Below are positions 3,141-13,790 of a stretch of DNA of 64,000 bases, piece after piece (position 1 is the stretch's first letter; each line of letters opens with the position of its first letter). The translations under genes and the position numbers were made by a program. The stretch spans positions 1 through 64,000 of the forward strand of contig CACFYZ010000003.1 of NCBI GenBank assembly GCA_902570675.1, written 5' to 3'. Source of the stretch: an uncultured Pelagibacteraceae bacterium (GTDB lineage: Bacteria; Pseudomonadota; Alphaproteobacteria; Pelagibacterales; AG-422-B15). The notes under the pieces were generated by a model that had not been told where the DNA came from, did not search any database, and saw only the letters and a program-made list of their open reading frames with translations.

Positions 3141-4181
3141 TTAAGGTGTGAATTCTTTATTTACCTGCTTAAGAGTTTCGTCTGTTCCATGGTGAAAATG
3201 TTTTCTCATGTCCGGCATATATTTCATCGAAATTGGTTTTTTACCAACTGCAACTGACATTTCTCTCACGTGATGTGCTTCGGCGCCACAACAAATTCCA
3301 ATAAAGTTGATATTTTTTTCCATACAGTCTGCAGCAAATTTAGCCATTTCAAAACGATTACAAAAAAGATTATCCAAGGCTACAGGAAATGCATTATTTC
3401 CAGGAATACAATCACATCCATCATCAGAAATATTTAAAAAACCAGGTTCCTTTTCTGTTGTTCGATAAGGCACTGGCAATCCAGCAACATGGCAAGATAC
3501 TTTATCTCTTACTTTTTCTAGAAGTTTCATAGTCATATCTGGCCCTCTATAACAGTTTAAACCAACGACATTTGCACCCAAGTCTTCCATCATTTTACAT
3601 GCATCTTCAGGTGTATGTCCTTCTCTTGTCTTATCTCCCCTGGGTATCGCAAAATTTGTAACTGCAATCATGCCTTCATCTTTGATTGCTTTTAGAGCAA
3701 TTTTCATTTCCTCAGTCCAATTAATTGTCTCAGCGACAATAAAATCAACTCCCGCTTCCTTTGCCCACGCCACTTGTTCCTCATACATTTTCTGACATTG
3801 AATAAGAGATTGTTTATCATTTGGATCATAAATATTTGTATTTGCTACATCTCCACAAACCATAAGATCTAAATCTTTATATTCATTAGCTGTATCTTTT
3901 GCAATTTGAAGAGCATTTTTCTGTAAAGACTCTAATAAATGTTCTTTCCCAATTATTCTTAATTTTTCTCTATGGCCATAATAAGTGAAAGCTTGGACAA
4001 CATCAGATCCTGCTCTTATAAATTCTCTATGTAATTGAGTAACAACTTCTGGGTGCTCTAAAACAACTTCAGGAACAAATCCTCCTGCGGATAAGTAACC
4101 TCTTCGTTCCATGGCGAATAAATAACCTTCAGCACAAATGATTGGTCCCTCATTTAATCTCGTTATCAGATCTTTTTTCAT
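3141..4181 (-). CDS. Homocysteine S-methyltransferase family protein, probable betaine-homocysteine methyltransferase
   Basis: Zn-site motifs VGLNCYRGP and GICCGAEAHHVREM; adjacent to DMGDH-like gene. Confidence 0.82.
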   Translation of the reverse strand: MKKDLITRLNEGPIICAEGYLFAMERRGYLSAGGFVPEVVLEHPEVVTQLHREFIRAGSDVVQAFTYYGHREKLRIIGKEHLLESLQKNALQIAKDTANEYKDLDLMVCGDVANTNIYDPNDKQSLIQCQKMYEEQVAWAKEAGVDFIVAETINWTEEMKIALKAIKDEGMIAVTNFAIPRGDKTREGHTPEDACKMMEDLGANVVGLNCYRGPDMTMKLLEKVRDKVSCHVAGLPVPYRTTEKEPGFLNISDDGCDCIPGNNAFPVALDNLFCNRFEMAKFAADCMEKNINFIGICCGAEAHHVREMSVAVGKKPISMKYMPDMRKHFHHGTDETLKQVNKEFTP

Positions 4182-4292: not shown

Positions 4293-5663
4293 CTAATTTG
4301 AAAACAAACGCTCATCAAGCGGATAAGTAGAAATCGTTTCGTAACCATTATTTGTTACCACACCCTGATCCTCAAGCTTGACCATGTGGTCCCCATTAAC
4401 TTCACCCACTAAAGCCTCGACACAAAGAGTCAGTCCTGGTTCCAGAACAGCGTCAAAGGCATTTTTAACCAAACGGTCTGGGTAGGCGATCAATGGCCAT
4501 TCGTCACACATCCCGACACCATGCATAGGTGATGAATACTTGAGCGCCTGATACTTGTCCTGCAACACGTGCAAAGAATGAGTTAAGTCTTCCATGTGGA
4601 GGCCGGGCTTGAGAAGCCTTGTGTTATAGCGAATGTGTTCTACTGCCTCTGCATAACTCTCGCGCATATTAGCTGGCGCTAAACTATCTCCAATCCACCA
4701 GGTACGACTGAGATCTGCACAAATCCCATAGGGGCCGATCAAATCAGTATCAAAAGCAAGAATTTCGTTCTCAGATATGATCCTTGGCCCACATTCTTGA
4801 AACCATGGGTTGGTGCGTGGCCCTGAAGTAAGCAGTCTTGTCTCAATCCACTCGCCACCTCTTTTAATATTTTCTGCATGGAGTACCGCCCAAACATCAT
4901 CCTCTGTCACACCACCTTTTGGAATTTCTGCGCGTGCAAACTCCTCCATAACTGCCATCGAGCGTTCACAAGAATAAATAGAACAGCGCATTGCTCGTAA
5001 TTCGTGCTCGGTTTTGATAGCTCGTGCACGTTCTGTCACTTCCTCACCGTCACAGTACTCAAGCCCTGCTCGACGGACCGCATCTAAACCTGCAGGCTGA
5101 ATTTTGTCTATACCGACTTGTGTACAACCTGGAGCGTGAGTGGCAATTAAGTCTAGTACCTCAGCTGCGAAAGCGTCAGCTGCTGGCCCAATCCGGTCAC
5201 CACGGGCGAAGTAAAACATGTCCGCACCTGAGCGGCTCTCACGAACAAGTGGATTGTATTGGGCGAGGAATGGTGCGTTTTTATAATCCCAGAGTACCAT
5301 ATACCCATCAGCACAAAGCAAGCACGCCCGGAACGGATTGTGGGTGTTCCACAACTGCATATTTGTCGTGTCAGTTGCATAACGAATATTGAGGGGATCA
5401 AACATCAATAAGCCCCCATAACCCCTGGCTATAATTGCATCAGTCAAGCGTTTGTGTCTGGCTTTGCGCATCTCAGTCAGATCTGGCAATATAAGCCCTG
5501 CATCTTGCCATTCAGCATAGGCTAATGCAGTTGGGCCAATTTCGACACGATCGCCATCATTGATTGTTCCATCGCCCAGATGCAACCCCTGGCTTGGGTC
5601 TATCTTATGATTATCGCTGTAGTAATTATTTATATTTGGTAATATTTTGCGATTTATCTTCAT
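4293..5663 (-). CDS. dddP: DMSP lyase DddP-like (M24-fold)
   Basis: IDPSQGLHLGDGTINDGDRVEIGPT, FDPLNIRYATDTTNMQLWNTHNPFRAC, RGGEWIETRLLTSGPRTNPWFQECGPR, metal-site motifs FDTDLIGPYGICADLSRTWW, MHGVGMCDEWP, CVEALV, KLEDQ; very close to my recollection of roseobacter DddP. Confidence 0.9.
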   Translation of the reverse strand: MKINRKILPNINNYYSDNHKIDPSQGLHLGDGTINDGDRVEIGPTALAYAEWQDAGLILPDLTEMRKARHKRLTDAIIARGYGGLLMFDPLNIRYATDTTNMQLWNTHNPFRACLLCADGYMVLWDYKNAPFLAQYNPLVRESRSGADMFYFARGDRIGPAADAFAAEVLDLIATHAPGCTQVGIDKIQPAGLDAVRRAGLEYCDGEEVTERARAIKTEHELRAMRCSIYSCERSMAVMEEFARAEIPKGGVTEDDVWAVLHAENIKRGGEWIETRLLTSGPRTNPWFQECGPRIISENEILAFDTDLIGPYGICADLSRTWWIGDSLAPANMRESYAEAVEHIRYNTRLLKPGLHMEDLTHSLHVLQDKYQALKYSSPMHGVGMCDEWPLIAYPDRLVKNAFDAVLEPGLTLCVEALVGEVNGDHMVKLEDQGVVTNNGYETISTYPLDERLFSN

Positions 5664-5671
5664 TTTATTAA

Positions 5672-6814
5672 TTAAGGATTAATTCTATTCAAATAATTTA
5701 ATCTACCTACGATCTCATCCCTATCAATATAATATCCTTGGAGGTGTCTATTACCTGAATTGGCATCGTATTCTTTTCTGCCATGCAAGACTCTTCTGTT
5801 ATTAAAGCTAAAAATATCTCCAGCTTCTAATCTGAAATTGATTTCAAATATAGGGTCATGTAGCAATGAAAGAAGTTTACGATATGCTTCATAGAAGCTA
5901 TCCATAACTTCAGGACTGCAATCCATTATTCCCATATAAGCAACGCTGAACCGTATATCATTAAAATCATTGTTGTGATCTAGAGTAAATATGGGTTTAT
6001 GCATTACTCTAATTGTGTTTGCGGTGTAATCTCTATTTACAAATTTTACAGGTGTATCAAGAAGAATCTTGAAATATTCAGTAAAATTTTCTTTCATATA
6101 GCTTGCAACTTTAAATCCATCTAACGCAACTGATTCACCACCGGTTGCATCGTTTATTAAACAATGAAGGAACTGGTAGCCAGGAGCAATTTCATAATAT
6201 GGTAAGTCGATGTGATTTCTTAGAGCTGCAGCTGTATATGCTGAATTATTTGGATTAGGAATGTCGATTACTTCAAATGGTGTTTTAAAAAAAGTTTCTC
6301 TATGATGACTTATATTAGATAGAACATCAAAACCTGACTCTTTTTCAGTGGGTGCATTTTTTACAATTGAAATGCCCTTATAGTGAAGTTGTTCTAACCA
6401 TTTTTTTATTCCTTCATCTCCACTAATAATTTCTTGATAATCTATTTGAATATCTTCAAAATTTGATTGCATACTATTATCCCACAAAAAATAAGGTGAA
6501 CTATATATTTTCTTACTTTTCATCGTGTAACAGTTATGTCGAAGCCATTCGACGTCATAGTGACTTATATGGCCTCCTTCACTCCACTCAATCTCCAACT
6601 GCCCTTTATCATTTATTGTAAACTCTTTTGGGTAAATATTTTCTGAAACATTTAGCAAGTTAAAGGTTCTCTCCCTTGCAGTAGGGTGAACTTCTGATGG
6701 ACAATTATCCCTTAACCATAAAAAATTAAATTTACTCTGCTCACCATCACTCCAATCAATTAGAATCGATTTACCATTCTTTTTTAATGATGATATTGAT
6801 GGATTCTCATTCAT
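5672..6814 (-). CDS. Gamma-butyrobetaine hydroxylase-like Fe(II)/2OG dioxygenase (TauD/TfdA superfamily)
   Basis: N-terminal FLWLRDNCPSEVHPTARER motif of BBOX family; HIDLPYYEIAPGYQFLHC Fe-site motif; RRVLHGRKEY distal His. Confidence 0.85.
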   Translation of the reverse strand: MNENPSISSLKKNGKSILIDWSDGEQSKFNFLWLRDNCPSEVHPTARERTFNLLNVSENIYPKEFTINDKGQLEIEWSEGGHISHYDVEWLRHNCYTMKSKKIYSSPYFLWDNSMQSNFEDIQIDYQEIISGDEGIKKWLEQLHYKGISIVKNAPTEKESGFDVLSNISHHRETFFKTPFEVIDIPNPNNSAYTAAALRNHIDLPYYEIAPGYQFLHCLINDATGGESVALDGFKVASYMKENFTEYFKILLDTPVKFVNRDYTANTIRVMHKPIFTLDHNNDFNDIRFSVAYMGIMDCSPEVMDSFYEAYRKLLSLLHDPIFEINFRLEAGDIFSFNNRRVLHGRKEYDANSGNRHLQGYYIDRDEIVGRLNYLNRINP

Positions 6815-6817
6815 ATC

Positions 6818-7792
6818 TTATTTAAATGTATTATATTTTCTGTCCCAATTCGGAAACTTACCTTTTTGATTCTTATTTAAAGTTTTCATAATTTCAATCA
6901 AAAACAAATCTCTTTGTTTTTCTAGTTCTTTAATATTGAATTTTCCTGCTTGTTTTTTTGTTCCTGAAACCATTGCTTTTTTAAGTTTGTTGGTTAATTC
7001 AGGTGCTTTCAATTTTGTCCAAGGGAGTTTTAGTGCAGGACCAAATTGTTCCAGCATGTGTTTCATGCCAGTTTCTCCACCAGCTAAATGGAACGTTAAA
7101 CAAACCCCCATAAAAGCCCATCTCAATCCAGGACCATAAACAATTGCATCATCAACTTCATCCGTTGATGCTACCCCGTCATTTATAATATGCAAGGCTT
7201 CACGCCATAACGCTTCTTGTAGTCTGTCTGAAATATATCCTTCTATTTCTTTTTGAACAATAAGTGGTCGCATTCCAATATTTTCATATAATTTTTTTAA
7301 TTTTTTAACACTTATATGACTAGTTTTCTTGCCAGCTACAATCTCTACTAGAGGTAATAAGTATACGGGATTAAATGGATGACCTATTAAAACTCTCTCA
7401 GGAAACTTACAAGCCGATTGAATTTTTGATGGTAATAAGCCTGACGAACTAGATGCGATTATAACTCTCTTATCAACTAAATTATCAATTTGTTTGAGTA
7501 TATTTTTTTTAATCTTTTTGTTTTCTGGTGCATTCTCTTGAACAAAAGTTGTATCCTTCAATGCACTAGGTAATTTTGAATAGACCTTAAGATTTCTTAA
7601 TGAGGCATTTCTATTCAAACCGATTTTCTTTAAGCTTTTAAAAGCAGTTCGAACATTTATTTTTAGCTGCTCACGTGAAACACTATTAGGGTCATATGCT
7701 TTTACAGTATAACCTTTAGCTAGAAATCTTGCAGCCCAGCCTGCACCAATTACTCCAGTACCCACAATAGTGATGACTTTATTTTCTCTCAA
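6818..7792 (-). CDS. 3-hydroxyacyl-CoA dehydrogenase family, probable L-carnitine dehydrogenase (unfused form)
   Basis: NAD-binding [46 protein letters not shown]; overlaps the BKACE gene by 4 nt. Confidence 0.83.
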
Positions 7793-8673
7793 ACTTTAAG
7801 CCCAAGTTTTTTTCTGGCTTCATCTGGCCCCATCACATTTGCACCAAGATTACTAATTATTGTAGTTGCTTTTTCAACAAGTTGACCGTTTGAGGCGTAT
7901 ACACCTTTTTCAAGATATAGGTTGTCTTCAAGACCAACTCTAACATTGCCTCCCAAAAGAACCGCTTGAGCAACCATCGGCATTTGATGAACCCCAATTC
8001 CAAAAGCTGCCCAGTTACTGCCCGATGGTAGCATGTCTACCATGTTTTTCATTGAACTGGTATTAGCCGGTGCCCCATAGGGAATGCCAAGACAAATTTG
8101 AAATAGAGGAGGGCTGTCAAGCAACCCTTCGTCATGCATTTGATTGGCAAACCACATATGTCCTGTATCAAAAATTTCTAATTCTGGTTTGACGCCTAAC
8201 TCTTGTATTCTTTTTGCACCAATCCTTAATTGCTCGGGAGTACTAACATAAATCATATTCTCATCACCAAAATTTAGTGTACCGCAATCAAGGGAACATA
8301 TATCGGGTAATATTTTCTCAACGTGACTGAGTCTTTCAATTGCATTAATAAAATCTGTATTCGGTCCAAATTTTAGGAGATCATCCTCAGGCCCAATTTC
8401 AATATCTCCACCCATGCCACTGGTAAGATTTATTATTACATTTGTTCCGCTTTCTTTTATTCGGCTCACAACCTCTTTATACAGATTATCATCTCTCGAA
8501 CCTTTTCCTGTTTTAAGATCTCTAACATGAATATGTGCTATAGCAGCTCCTGCTGATGCTGCTTCGATCGAAGCATTCGCAATTTGTTCTGGTGTAACGG
8601 GTATGTTTGGGTGTTTATTAATCGTATCCCCAGATCCAGTAACTGCACAAGAAATAATGACATTTTTATTCAT
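7789..8673 (-). CDS. DUF849 / beta-keto acid cleavage enzyme (BKACE), probable 3-dehydrocarnitine cleavage
   Basis: [43 protein letters not shown] and [26 protein letters not shown] are family hallmarks. Confidence 0.9.
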
Positions 8674-8740: not shown

Positions 8741-10165
8741 ATGCAAAATCTACAAAAATTTTATATTAATGGAAAATGGATTAATCCTCAATCTAGTAAG
8801 AAAATGCCTGTAGTTAATCCTGCAACGGAGGAGATTATCGGAGAAGTCATATTGGGTAATGAGGAAGATGTGAATATAGCAGTGAATGCTGCTAAGGAAT
8901 CATTTAAAAGTTTTTCAACAACATCCAAAGAAGAGAGGATGGGCATATTAAAAAATATTCGAAAAATTTCCGAAGCTCGATTTGATGATTTAGCTGATGC
9001 CATGACAATGGAGATGGGTGCACCCAGAAAAATGTCGCGCGAGGCGCAAGCTGATGCAGCTATTGGTCATTTAGATGGATTTATTAGTGCATTAGAAAAG
9101 CATGAGGAAAAAATTCAGTTATCTAATACAGACGTATTATTAAAAGAACCAATAGGAGTATGTGGTTTAATCACTCCTTGGAACTGGCCGATAAACCAAA
9201 TCACTTTGAAAGTCTTACCTGTGATCGCAACTGGCTGCACCTCTATTTTAAAACCGTCAGAACATACACCATTGTCAGCAATGGTTTATGCAGAAATATT
9301 AGATGAAGCTGGGGTACCCGCAGGCGTATTTAATTTAGTTCAAGGTGATGGCGAGGGTGTAGGCATAGCTATGTCAAGGCATCCAGATATTGAGATGATG
9401 TCGTTTACAGGTTCTAAAAGGGGTGGAAAGTCAGTTACAATTGAGTCAGCTGAAACAGTTAAAAAAGTTACACTTGAGCTTGGGGGCAAGTCACCAAATC
9501 TAGTTTTTGCAGATTGTGATCTTGAGGAAAAGGTTACTGCTTCAGTAAATGAATGTATGTTTAATACAGGTCAATCTTGTGACGCTCCAACTAGACTACT
9601 AGTTGAAAAAAAATGTTATGATGAAGTTATCACAATTGCAAAAAGAGCAGCTGAAGCAATAAAAGTTGGTGATCCACTTGAGGATGGTGACCACCTAGGA
9701 CCGTTATTTGATAAGATCCAATTTGATAGAGTTCAAAATATGATTCAAGTAGGTATAGATGAAGGAGCTGAATTACTTGTTGGCGGTTTGGGTAAACCGG
9801 AAGGCCTGGAAAAAGGTTGGTTTACAAAACCAACTATTTTTATAAACGTAAATAATAGCATGAGAGTAGCTCAAGAAGAGATCTTTGGCCCTGTTCTTGT
9901 GATTATTCCGTTTGAAGATGAAAACGAAGCAATTGAAATAGCTAATGATACACCGTATGGACTTGCAGCATATTTGCAAACAGGTGACGTGGAAAGGGCA
10001 GAGAGGGTTTCAAGGCAGCTTAGAGCTGGTGGCGTCCACATTAATGGAGGAGGTTATAACTATGGTTCTCCATTTGGCGGCTATAAGGAATCAGGCAATG
10101 GCCGTGAAGGTGGTGACATGGGTCTTGAGGATTATCTTGAAACAAAAGCATTACACATTGCTTAA
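8741..10165 (+). CDS. NAD(P)-dependent aldehyde dehydrogenase family protein
   Basis: LITPWNWPINQI, VTLELGGKSPNLVF, FNTGQSCDAPTRLLV catalytic Cys, EEIFGPVLVI. Confidence 0.93.
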   Translation: MQNLQKFYINGKWINPQSSKKMPVVNPATEEIIGEVILGNEEDVNIAVNAAKESFKSFSTTSKEERMGILKNIRKISEARFDDLADAMTMEMGAPRKMSREAQADAAIGHLDGFISALEKHEEKIQLSNTDVLLKEPIGVCGLITPWNWPINQITLKVLPVIATGCTSILKPSEHTPLSAMVYAEILDEAGVPAGVFNLVQGDGEGVGIAMSRHPDIEMMSFTGSKRGGKSVTIESAETVKKVTLELGGKSPNLVFADCDLEEKVTASVNECMFNTGQSCDAPTRLLVEKKCYDEVITIAKRAAEAIKVGDPLEDGDHLGPLFDKIQFDRVQNMIQVGIDEGAELLVGGLGKPEGLEKGWFTKPTIFINVNNSMRVAQEEIFGPVLVIIPFEDENEAIEIANDTPYGLAAYLQTGDVERAERVSRQLRAGGVHINGGGYNYGSPFGGYKESGNGREGGDMGLEDYLETKALHIA

Positions 10166-10190: not shown

Positions 10191-12131
10191 ATGGGAAAAT
10201 TACTGTGGCAAGCTACAGAACAAAGAAGTAAGCAAGCAAACTTAATCAAATACTATGATTATCTTAAAAAAGATTATTCACTAAACTTTGATTATGATTA
10301 TGACTCTCTATTCAACTGGAGTATAGCTAAACCTAATTTATTTTGGACAAGTCTCTTAAATTATTTCGACATAAATTTTAGTGGAAATTCAAGTCCTGCT
10401 ATAAGTGAAGGTGAAAATATTTATGACAAAAAATTTTTTCCAAACGTTAAGCTTAGCTATAGTGAGAATATCATTAATAATTTAAATTCTAGTCCTATTC
10501 TCTATATAAATGAAAACGGTTTTAAAAAATATTACATAAAAGAAGAAATTATTAATAAAGTAAATGTAATTTCAAAATACTTGAGGTCAATCGGTGTAAA
10601 AAAAGGAGATAGAATAGTCGGTGTTGTAAGCAATAATGCTGAAACATTAATTTCATTTCTTGCAGTAAATTCAATTGGAGCAATATGGTCTTCTTGTTCT
10701 CCAGATTTTGGCGAGCAGGCTATACTAGATAGGTTTAATCAAATAGAGCCAAAAATTTTGTTTTATTCTAGTAATTATGTTTACGGAGGAAAGAAATTCG
10801 AAATTTTAAAAAAAATAAAAAGTATTGAAAGTGTTCTTAATACATTAGAGGAGTCTATATGTATTGATACTTCAGAAAATGATAAAAGTTTTGTTGATAA
10901 AAAACTCAATGATTATGAAGAAAACAATAAAGACTTGGCAGATCTCTTCTTTGAAAGATGCAATTTTAATGATCCAATGTATATATTGTACTCTAGTGGC
11001 ACGACAGGAAAGCCAAAATGCATCCTCCATAATACTGGAGGTCCATTAATTCAGCATTTGAAGGAACAGCAGCTTCACGGCGATATTTCTGAAAATGATA
11101 AGTTATTCTATTTTACTACATGTGGATGGATGATGTGGAATTGGCTTATTTCTGGTCTCGCCTCCAAAGCTACAATAGTTCTCTATGAAGGATCTCCTTT
11201 CTTTCCAAAGCAGGACTCGCTTTTTAAATTAGCAGAAGAGGAGGGAATTACTTGTTTTGGAACCAGTGCAAAGTTCATTGATGCGTTAAGAAATAATCAA
11301 ATTCAAATTTCAAATAATTTTAATCTTACCAAACTGAAAACAATTTTAAGTACAGGATCTCCATTAGTTAGTGAAAGCTTTGAGTATGTATATAGAAATA
11401 TAAAGAAAGACGTTCATTTGGCGTCTATCAGCGGAGGTACTGATATTGTCTCATGTTTTGTCGGAGGTAATCCAACAGGTCCTGTATTTTCAGGGGAGAT
11501 TCAGTGTGAATGTTTGGGAGTCAATGTTGACATATACAACGAAGAGGGTAACCGAACTCTTCAAAAAGGAGAATTGGTATGTAAGTCAGCACTTCCTTCA
11601 ATGCCAATAGGATTTTGGAACGATAGAAATAGAGAAAAATATATAAATTCATATTTTTCAAAATATACAAATATTTGGACACAAGGTGATTACGCAACAA
11701 AAACAGAAAAAAAAGGTTTCATAATTTATGGACGCTCTGACTCAACTCTTAATCCTGGTGGTATAAGAATTGGAACTGCAGAAATATACAGAGCTGTTGA
11801 GAAACTTGATGAAGTAAATGAGTCAATAGTAGTTGGTCAGGAATGGAATAATGATGTCAGGATTATTTTATTTGTAACTCTTAAAGAGAAAATTGATCTG
11901 AATGATGAACTTGTATCAAGAATTAAGGAAAATATTAAAAGTTCAACATCAATCAGACATGTACCCGCTAAGATTATTCATGTTAATGATATTCCTAGAA
12001 CACGCAGCGGTAAGATCGCTGAGCTGACTGTAAGGGATATTATTAATGGTGAAAAAGTGAAAAATATAGAGGCACTTGCAAATCCAAGTTGTCTGTCAGA
12101 TTACGAAAATATTGAAGAATTAGATTATTAA
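10191..12131 (+). CDS. Acetoacetyl-CoA synthetase
   Basis: Adenylation motif ILYSSGTTGKPKCILH; N-terminal ACAS-type region, TTCGWMMWNWLISGLASKATIVLYEGSP characteristic of acetoacetate-CoA ligases. Confidence 0.9.
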   Translation: MGKLLWQATEQRSKQANLIKYYDYLKKDYSLNFDYDYDSLFNWSIAKPNLFWTSLLNYFDINFSGNSSPAISEGENIYDKKFFPNVKLSYSENIINNLNSSPILYINENGFKKYYIKEEIINKVNVISKYLRSIGVKKGDRIVGVVSNNAETLISFLAVNSIGAIWSSCSPDFGEQAILDRFNQIEPKILFYSSNYVYGGKKFEILKKIKSIESVLNTLEESICIDTSENDKSFVDKKLNDYEENNKDLADLFFERCNFNDPMYILYSSGTTGKPKCILHNTGGPLIQHLKEQQLHGDISENDKLFYFTTCGWMMWNWLISGLASKATIVLYEGSPFFPKQDSLFKLAEEEGITCFGTSAKFIDALRNNQIQISNNFNLTKLKTILSTGSPLVSESFEYVYRNIKKDVHLASISGGTDIVSCFVGGNPTGPVFSGEIQCECLGVNVDIYNEEGNRTLQKGELVCKSALPSMPIGFWNDRNREKYINSYFSKYTNIWTQGDYATKTEKKGFIIYGRSDSTLNPGGIRIGTAEIYRAVEKLDEVNESIVVGQEWNNDVRIILFVTLKEKIDLNDELVSRIKENIKSSTSIRHVPAKIIHVNDIPRTRSGKIAELTVRDIINGEKVKNIEALANPSCLSDYENIEELDY

Positions 12132-12147
12132 TCATATATTTTCAAAT

Positions 12148-13242
12148 ATGAGACTAGACTTTGACTCAAACGAATTAAGGGTATTTGATAAAGAGGAAAT
12201 CTTTAAAATACATCCTTTATGGATACGGGAACGATCAACAGAAAAAGGAGAGGTTGATCAAAATTCTTTTCAAAGATTGTATGATCCCGAAAAGATTAAG
12301 CCAGATTTAAAAATAAAAAATGCTCAATTACTAGCAAATAACAAAATGTACATCGAATTTTCAGATAACCACAATGCAACCTATTGTCTAGAAAAGTTGG
12401 TAACAGAAATTACAAGATCTAATATTATGCCGCCAAAGATCTACTGGAATAAAAATGATGTTAAGTTTAAAAAATTTCATTTTGTCGAGGGAGAAAAAGA
12501 AAATTGGCAGTTGTTTGAAATTTTAAAATTTTACCATCAGTATGGGTATGTTGTAATTGAAGGTTTGCCAGCCAAGGATGGAGAAGTGATAAAATTCGCA
12601 GAAAAGATTGGTTTTGTGAGAGAAACTAACTTTGGTAAGTTATTTAATGTTAGGTCTGAGAAACAACCTAATGATTTAGCTTATACGTCGATTGAATTAG
12701 AATCACATACAGATAATCCCTATAGAAAACCAGTGCCATCAATTCAATTTTTATTTTGTATAGAAAACAGTTGTAAAGGTGGAGATTCTACTGTTGTAGA
12801 CGGTTTCAAAGTTGCGGAGGATTTAAAAAAAGAAAATCCTAAAGCTTTTAACATTCTAAAAAACACTTTGATAAACTATAAATTTGAGGATAACGACGCT
12901 ATTTTAGAAAAGACTGGAAAAATTATAAAATTAAGTGCCAGAGGCGAACTAAAACAAATAAAATATAGCAATCGGTTAGACTTTGTATTTTATGATGAGC
13001 CGCATGTTCTTGAAGAATTTTATGCTGCGAAAAGAGTTATGCATCAAATGATTAATTCTGATAAATATATATTACAATTTCATTTAGAGCCTGGTAATCT
13101 ATTAATTATGAATAATTATAGAACTTTGCATGGAAGACGAAGCTATAGCACTTCTGAAGGAAGTCGATGGCTTCAAGGTTTATATATTGATCATGATTCA
13201 GCTGAAAGTAAATACAAACTCCTCGCTAAAGAAGTTAAATGA
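12148..13242 (+). CDS. Fe(II)/2OG oxygenase, BBOX-like; candidate TmpA (2-trimethylammonioethylphosphonate hydroxylase)
   Basis: HTDNPYRKPVPSIQFLFC Fe-site motif, RTLHGRRSY distal His, N-terminal BBOX-like domain without the usual Cys cluster; 4-nt overlap with HD-domain gene. Confidence 0.75.
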   Translation: MRLDFDSNELRVFDKEEIFKIHPLWIRERSTEKGEVDQNSFQRLYDPEKIKPDLKIKNAQLLANNKMYIEFSDNHNATYCLEKLVTEITRSNIMPPKIYWNKNDVKFKKFHFVEGEKENWQLFEILKFYHQYGYVVIEGLPAKDGEVIKFAEKIGFVRETNFGKLFNVRSEKQPNDLAYTSIELESHTDNPYRKPVPSIQFLFCIENSCKGGDSTVVDGFKVAEDLKKENPKAFNILKNTLINYKFEDNDAILEKTGKIIKLSARGELKQIKYSNRLDFVFYDEPHVLEEFYAAKRVMHQMINSDKYILQFHLEPGNLLIMNNYRTLHGRRSYSTSEGSRWLQGLYIDHDSAESKYKLLAKEVK

Positions 13243-13790
13243 AGACAGTCAAGTTTACTCAGATGAAAGATGGGTCAAGAGAAGATTATGAACTATTGGC
13301 TGAATATGAAAAAAGCTATGTACATGAACTCCCTGATCGAATCTTGAACTCATTAAAAAACTTAGACAATTCAGTGGATGGTTATCAAGTTACAAGACTT
13401 GAGCATTCTCTTCAGTCAGCAACTAGAGCGGAAAAAGATGGTGCAGATGAGGAAATGATTGTTGCAACACTATTACACGATATTGGAGATTCTTTGGCCC
13501 CTTATAATCACAGTCAATTAATAGCAGCAGTTTTGAGGCCTTATGTTTCAGAAAAGATCCATTGGATCATGCTACATCACGGTCTTTTTCAAGAATATTA
13601 CTATGCACATCATTTAGGTAAAGATAGGAATTCACGTGATAAATTTAGAGACCACCCTTACTACCAAGATGCGGTTGATTTTTGCGAGAAGTGGGATCAA
13701 AAGTCGTTTGACCCTGATTATGAGTCGTTTCCATTAGAACATTTCGAACCTATGGTGAGAAGATTATTCTCTAAAGAACCAAATTTTTAA
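13239..13790 (+). CDS. HD-domain protein of PhnZ/TmpB type (candidate mixed-valent diiron oxygenase)
   Basis: LEHSLQ...LLHDIGD...YNHSQL...LHHGLFQ...KWDQ candidate metal ligands; H56 to H80 spacing of 24 equals PhnZ H34 to H58 as I recall it. Confidence 0.72.
   Translation: MKTVKFTQMKDGSREDYELLAEYEKSYVHELPDRILNSLKNLDNSVDGYQVTRLEHSLQSATRAEKDGADEEMIVATLLHDIGDSLAPYNHSQLIAAVLRPYVSEKIHWIMLHHGLFQEYYYAHHLGKDRNSRDKFRDHPYYQDAVDFCEKWDQKSFDPDYESFPLEHFEPMVRRLFSKEPNF

Follow-up and report, generated by a model that had tools for sequence, protein, structure and literature searches.

The described system closest to the gene pair analysed here is TmpA/TmpB of Leisingera caerulea (PDB 6npb-6npd and 6npa), in which a BBOX-superfamily Fe/2OG oxygenase with an aromatic cage is directly followed by an HD-domain diiron protein. 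Three TmpA residues, N187, N287 and R288, touch the phosphonate (PMC9296572). PhnZ, TmpB and MIOX act by oxidising a carbinol carbon, with cleavage of the bond next to it; a YxxE substrate loop has been described in HD oxygenases, and the known enzymes act on phosphonates or myo-inositol (reviewed in PMC8177086). Another BBOX-superfamily enzyme, N-epsilon-trimethyllysine (TML) hydroxylase (TMLH), has an aldolase partner and no HD partner, and its Asp231 is thought to bind the alpha-ammonium of TML (PMC7764450).

The overlapping gene pair and its oxygenase

The window, which is the whole stretch of 64,000 nucleotides that was analysed, comes from a SAR11 (Pelagibacteraceae) genome. On its plus strand it carries a gene for a 364-residue Fe/2OG oxygenase (P0001; positions 12148..13242), placed in the BBOX/TmpA superfamily by NCBIfam scores and predicted structure and assigned to its 'Asp clade', followed by a gene for a 183-residue HD-domain protein (P0002; 13239..13790), which is predicted from its structure model and PDB matches to be a mixed-valent diiron oxygenase and is assigned to a new family. 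As described in the initial annotation, the reading frames share 4 nt, an ATGA stop/start overlap at 13239..13242 on the plus strand. Close relatives of P0002 were found in uncultured Pelagibacteraceae. Because the HD protein is conserved at 54-97% identity across SAR11, SAR86, Pseudomonas and other Alphaproteobacteria, and because the oxygenase gene lies immediately 5′ of the HD gene in most SAR11 and Pseudomonas cases, we conclude that the pair is not a chance feature.

The initial annotation had read the pair as TmpA/TmpB, converting 2-(trimethylammonio)ethylphosphonate (TMAEP) into glycine betaine and phosphate. It was right as to the kind of module, a two-step non-heme-iron system like TmpA/TmpB and PhnY/PhnZ, and as to a betaine/carnitine locus and a probable quaternary-ammonium substrate. 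Membership in the TmpA/TmpB family was not supported for either protein. P0001 is best matched by the TmpA model (NF049936) at 341.5 bits, under the curated cut-off of 400 bits, with 20 genuine TmpA proteins scoring 437-592 bits. It also falls below the cut-offs of the BBOX model (TIGR02409; 287 against 415 bits) and the TMLH/TMLD model (TIGR02410; 181.8 against 268 bits). The predicted structure (pLDDT 91) has TmpA as its top PDB match (6npb; E 3e-36) and BBOX as its second. In a 66-sequence tree with TmpA and BBOX, a comparison already proposed with the initial annotation, genuine TmpA formed one clade (support 99/96) from which P0001 is excluded; P0001 falls in the sister clade (100/99), which is also separate from BBOX. 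The tree program flagged some long branches, and the flagged long-branch pair (human BBOX and SAR86 rows) lies away from the split between TmpA and the Asp clade. P0001 had also been said to lack a Cys close to its LWIRE motif and to have diverged from the second BBOX-like gene of the window (5672..6814), and both statements are correct. The product of that second gene does have a Cys there, a single one and not the cluster once attributed to it; the CPCxxC cluster present in human and Pseudomonas marincola BBOX is missing from it.

The residues of P0001 that align with TmpA N187, N287 and R288 are Asp176, Asn275 and Arg276, so that the first of the three is changed. Asp176 (codon 12673..12675, plus strand) corresponds in the alignment to BBOX Asn191, TmpA Asn187 and TMLH Asp231; Arg276 (codon 12973..12975, plus strand) occupies the TmpA Arg288 position and is followed by an invariant acidic residue, [DE]278. 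Within a non-redundant set, all 31 Asp-clade sequences, 22 of which adjoin a new-type HD gene, have Asp at the first position, and all 18 TmpA proteins paired with a canonical HD protein have Asn; the SAR86-type pairs (n=4) have Asn there but have lost the aromatic cage. Among 28 cage-bearing Asp-clade sequences, the R288 position is R/K in every case, as is Asp/Glu two positions past it, and N287 is kept in four. P0001 itself retains the cage, as F/F/Y. BBOX shares the superfamily and the cage but differs from P0001 in its Asn at 191, also found in orthologues of the second BBOX-like protein of the window, in having Ala/Trp at the TmpA Arg288 position and in having no HD partner. A bacterial protein above the TMLH cut-off (L307; 299 against 268 bits) also has Asp at the Asp176 position (KDTAYT), and the comparison with TMLH rests on PMC7764450 and this protein. 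The alignment suggests a site that combines an Asp to bind a cation, an Arg to bind an anion and a cage for trimethylammonium, and hence a quaternary-ammonium amino acid, not a phosphonate, as the substrate. The Asp and Asn sequences were rejected as independent support, as the tree shows a single split between them.

The HD-domain protein

Six residues of P0002, unchanged throughout 41 homologues, line up with the diiron ligands of PhnZ and TmpB: His56, the first ligand (13404..13406), the His80-Asp81 dyad (13476..13481), His91 (13509..13511), His114 (13578..13580) and Asp153, the last ligand (13695..13697), all encoded on the plus strand. The PhnZ-like ligand set of the initial annotation held for these residues and failed for His113. 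That residue was rejected, being His in 11 of the 41 homologues only, and His114 is taken as the ligand because His113 is not conserved. The structure model of P0002 (pLDDT 95) matched PhnZ and TmpB first, with E values of 6e-7 to 7e-6 for the ten top PDB matches. MIOX came next (E 2e-2), so that the 11 best matches are all PhnZ/TmpB/MIOX; no other match lies below E 0.02 and the first known HD hydrolase appears only at E > 0.1. Because the six ligands align and the fold matches PhnZ/TmpB and then MIOX, the model supports the view that P0002 is a diiron oxygenase of the PhnZ/TmpB/MIOX type. MIOX resembles P0002 as an HD diiron oxygenase that cleaves a C-C bond; unlike P0002, with which it shares 13% identity, it is longer, acts on a sugar alcohol and has no hydroxylase partner.

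P0002 scores far below the cut-offs of the TmpB model (NF049941; 47.5 against 300 bits) and the Phn-HD model (TIGR03276; 49 against 215 bits), and both matches cover residues 46-87 only. The YxxE loop is absent, with V46 and Y49 in its place (Y49 in 41/41 homologues). HDxGD replaces HDxGH in 41/41, Asp84 (13488..13490, plus strand) standing where PhnZ and TmpB have His after HDxG. The Lys of the HxxxK(RYL) motif is an invariant Gln118, and P0002 has no counterpart of the LS..S..QGG segment found in the PhnZ/TmpB type. We take the Lys of HxxxKRYL and the QGG segment to be responsible for phosphonate binding in PhnZ and TmpB. PhnZ1 and the PhnZ of PhnY/PhnZ thus share fold and ligand set with P0002 but not their phosphonate-site residues; PhnY is a member of another oxygenase family. 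Judged by its sequence, P0002 belongs to an HD family other than TmpB/PhnZ. TMAEP as the substrate is accordingly left without support in either protein, the phosphonate-site Asn being Asp in the oxygenase and both the YxxE loop and the phosphonate-site segment being missing from the HD protein.

Gene neighbourhoods in the window and in other genomes

Genuine TmpA above the NCBIfam cut-off, with Asn at the phosphonate-contacting position, was present in 20 genomes. A canonical HD partner, with a YxxE loop and a Lys after the fourth His, adjoins TmpA in 19 of the 20 loci; these 19 HD proteins have HDxGH in 17 cases, YxxE in 16 and HxxxK in all. In addition to genuine TmpA with its canonical HD neighbour, the new HD is encoded in ten sampled genomes (G060, G103, G107, G119, G123, G135, G175, G265, G304 and G366), and the source genome of the window has a canonical PhnZ1-like HD protein of its own, encoded beside phnX, phnC, phnD and phnE on another contig. 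This co-occurrence speaks against reading the new pair as a second TmpA/B. No phnD or phnX match was found in the 27 new-pair loci examined.

Within the window, the pair is preceded on the plus strand by genes for an aldehyde dehydrogenase (8741..10165; Pfam Aldedh) and an acetoacetate-CoA ligase (10191..12131; TIGR01217, 756 bits, cut-off 521), which ends 16 nt upstream of the pair. The minus strand encodes a BKACE-family enzyme (7789..8673; Pfam BKACE, 322 bits) that, given its neighbour, probably cleaves 3-dehydrocarnitine; an L-carnitine dehydrogenase-like protein (6818..7792; 372 bits against its best NCBIfam model, PRK07066, whose cut-off is 414); and the second BBOX-like oxygenase (P0003; 5672..6814), a probable gamma-butyrobetaine hydroxylase whose best NCBIfam score, against BBOX, is 311 bits (cut-off 415). 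A sarcosine/dimethylglycine-type demethylase is also encoded on the other strand, beyond these three genes. The DMSP lyase DddP (4293-5663, minus strand; NF043017, 786 bits, cut-off 600) sits within this betaine/carnitine locus of a SAR11 genome. Also on the minus strand, a homocysteine S-methyltransferase-family protein (3141-4181) scored poorly against all models; it may be connected with a demethylation of glycine betaine that has been described in marine bacteria (PMC12478193). A ProV-like ABC ATPase is encoded at 21-707.

Six families have carnitine genes next to the new HD gene: SAR11, Pseudomonas marincola, Defluviimonas, G335, f11 and G580. The order in P. marincola, whose pair is at L083:8820-10597, is SBP-BKACE-CDH-thioesterase-BBOX-oxygenase-HD. 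In f11 it is BKACE-HD-carnitine 3-dehydrogenase, followed by genes for an acyl-CoA dehydrogenase, a CoA ligase and a crotonobetainyl-CoA hydratase-like protein, and this operon is gamma-butyrobetaine-consuming. In several SAR11 groups, a betaine-type ABC transporter is encoded ahead of the pair. As proof against TMAEP the carnitine neighbourhood was rejected as decisive: two genuine TmpA/B loci of one family (L251 and L253) also adjoin carnitine genes, and location alone is therefore not decisive.

In the carnitine operons of f11 and Defluviimonas, the HD gene has no adjoining oxygenase gene. Our search found no Asp-clade oxygenase for the HD protein in the f11 genomes. Such an oxygenase is encoded unlinked to HD in G698, G619 and G580, the first two being SAR11-order genomes with an unpaired HD gene. 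Canonical TMLH was rejected as an unlinked partner, since a single protein exceeded its cut-off (L307:9232-10362, in G060) among 398 sampled Pseudomonadota genomes. A PhyH-type hydroxylase was likewise discarded as a general partner of lone HD proteins; among the f11 genomes searched, only one had a strong match, and this was not near the HD gene.

Candidate substrates and reactions

We regard it as moderately probable that the two enzymes form an oxidative module that acts on a quaternary-ammonium alpha-amino acid, and this class is firmer than the exact substrate. By analogy with described enzymes, we tentatively propose TML as the substrate, with cleavage between C2 and C3, an assignment that in our judgement falls somewhat short of an even chance. 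In the first step, the cage of P0001 would hold the trimethylammonium group, Asp176 the alpha-ammonium and Arg276 the carboxylate, and the enzyme would hydroxylate TML at C3 to give 3-hydroxy-TML. P0002 would then abstract the C3 hydrogen and cleave the C2-C3 bond with O2; if the chemistry of PhnZ, TmpB and MIOX is applied to 3-hydroxytrimethyllysine, the products would be gamma-butyrobetaine, glyoxylate and ammonium. Gamma-butyrobetaine could be converted to carnitine by P0003, carnitine to 3-dehydrocarnitine by the L-carnitine dehydrogenase-like protein, and 3-dehydrocarnitine to betainyl-CoA and acetoacetate by the BKACE-family enzyme. The acetoacetate-CoA ligase would consume the acetoacetate released by this cleavage, and the pathway would end in glycine betaine and acetoacetyl-CoA.

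Several observations count for TML: the Asp at the TMLH Asp231 site, the retained cage, the HD ligands together with the absence of the YxxE, HDxGH and HxxxK motifs, the fold of P0002 (PhnZ/TmpB first, then MIOX, which cleaves C-C bonds), the carnitine neighbours, among them the f11 operon that consumes gamma-butyrobetaine, and the rarity of canonical TMLH (1/398 Pseudomonadota genomes). Free TML (laminine) occurs in seaweeds (PMC3890275). Against TML we count that P0001 is overall nearest to TmpA and not to TMLH; that genuine TmpA/B can adjoin carnitine genes (L251, L253); that the single Asp/Asn split makes the sequences non-independent; that SAR86 pairs keep the HD protein with an oxygenase lacking the cage; and that there is no solved structure of an HD site holding an amino acid. 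Since f11 has the HD gene with no detectable Asp-clade oxygenase, a different hydroxylase must also be assumed there.

The broader proposal is a widespread bacterial route from TML to gamma-butyrobetaine, in which TML would be hydroxylated and an HD diiron oxygenase would then cleave its C2-C3 bond, in place of the aldolase and aldehyde dehydrogenase of eukaryotic carnitine synthesis, with a C-C-cleaving, amino-acid-specific HD branch in SAR11; we offer it tentatively, at somewhat under an even chance. The open-licence literature yielded nothing relevant on HD oxygenases acting on amino acids or on bacterial trimethyllysine breakdown. If true, C-C cleavage in a methylated amino acid would broaden HD oxygenase chemistry, provide an aerobic bacterial route to gamma-butyrobetaine and tie the free trimethyllysine known from seaweeds to the catabolism of glycine betaine in SAR11, which are abundant marine heterotrophs.

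The same type of module could act on another substrate, either a shorter trimethylammonium amino acid, such as 2-amino-4-trimethylammoniobutyrate, from which glycine betaine would arise directly, or a betaine that is cut beside its carboxylate. Asp176 and Arg276 point to an amino acid and leave its chain length unfixed, TmpA hydroxylates the second carbon from the nitrogen, as would suit a shorter chain, and downstream genes handle glycine betaine too. The occurrence of the HD gene in gamma-butyrobetaine-consuming operons is a better fit to a C4 betaine product. To our knowledge, shorter trimethylammonium amino acids are little documented, which we also count against this alternative; we consider it unlikely, though with an appreciable chance of being correct.

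That carnitine or some other intermediate of the pathway is the HD protein's own substrate, with the oxygenase as an accessory, would account for the f11 and Defluviimonas operons in which no oxygenase gene adjoins the HD gene. Those operons already contain the full dehydrogenase/BKACE route, and the SAR11-order genomes G698 and G619 hold an unlinked Asp-clade oxygenase, so we think this improbable. A slightly smaller chance is given to P0001 as a TML hydroxylase with P0002 as a non-oxidative lyase, analogous to hydroxy-TML aldolase, and the aldehyde dehydrogenase making gamma-butyrobetaine. The aldehyde dehydrogenase gene is indeed upstream on the same strand as the pair, and HD-domain lyases exist, such as Ddi2 (PMC8177086). 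P0002 keeps the full set of six diiron ligands and has the fold of an oxygenase, however, and the aldehyde dehydrogenase is missing in some related loci: in L067 no such gene separates BKACE from AACS, and none was detected in the P. marincola and G335 loci.

Conversion of TMAEP by the pair as TmpA/TmpB is very unlikely. TmpA is the top family model and top PDB match of P0001, the Arg288 equivalent and the cage are kept, and the locus handles glycine betaine; these points are outweighed by the Asp at the N187 contact throughout the clade, the loss of N287 in most of its cage-bearing members, the four motifs missing from the HD protein (YxxE, HDxGH, HxxxKRYL and LS..S..QGG), the position outside the TmpA clade and the ten genomes that hold genuine TmpA/B plus the new HD. 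In phosphonate surveys, genes of the Asp clade should be left out of tmpA/tmpB counts. Least probable of all, and barely credible, is that P0002 is a common phosphohydrolase with no connection to the oxygenase, since the generic Pfam HD match (23 bits), the sole Pfam match of P0002 above cut-off, is set against a tight, conserved pairing of overlapping genes and against hydrolases that appear only at E > 0.1 among the structure matches.

Other arrangements of these genes were also observed. SAR86 and related gammaproteobacteria (L104, L105, L107 and L109) pair the new HD gene with the cage-less oxygenase, which has F/H/H at the cage positions; this loss suggests that the same HD module serves a different substrate there. 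A PhyH-family oxygenase, an unrelated hydroxylase, is encoded directly upstream of the new HD gene in Rhodobacteraceae-type genomes (L100, L143, L146, L149, L150 and L154). In several SAR11 genomes the HD gene stands alone directly 3′ of a purF-like gene (L071, L073-L076, L079, L085, L090 and L095). The source genome encodes a third BBOX-superfamily oxygenase (L228:7674-8756, on contig C7 of G000) of the Asp type with an altered cage, W/A/M; relatives of this oxygenase adjoin BKACE/CDH genes (L218) and a new-type HD gene (L168). Finally, a Pseudomonas aeruginosa plasmid from a cystic fibrosis lung (L194; NZ_CP115240.1) carries an Asp-type pair alongside genes for a choline-type binding protein, choline dehydrogenase, aldehyde dehydrogenase and a CoA transferase.
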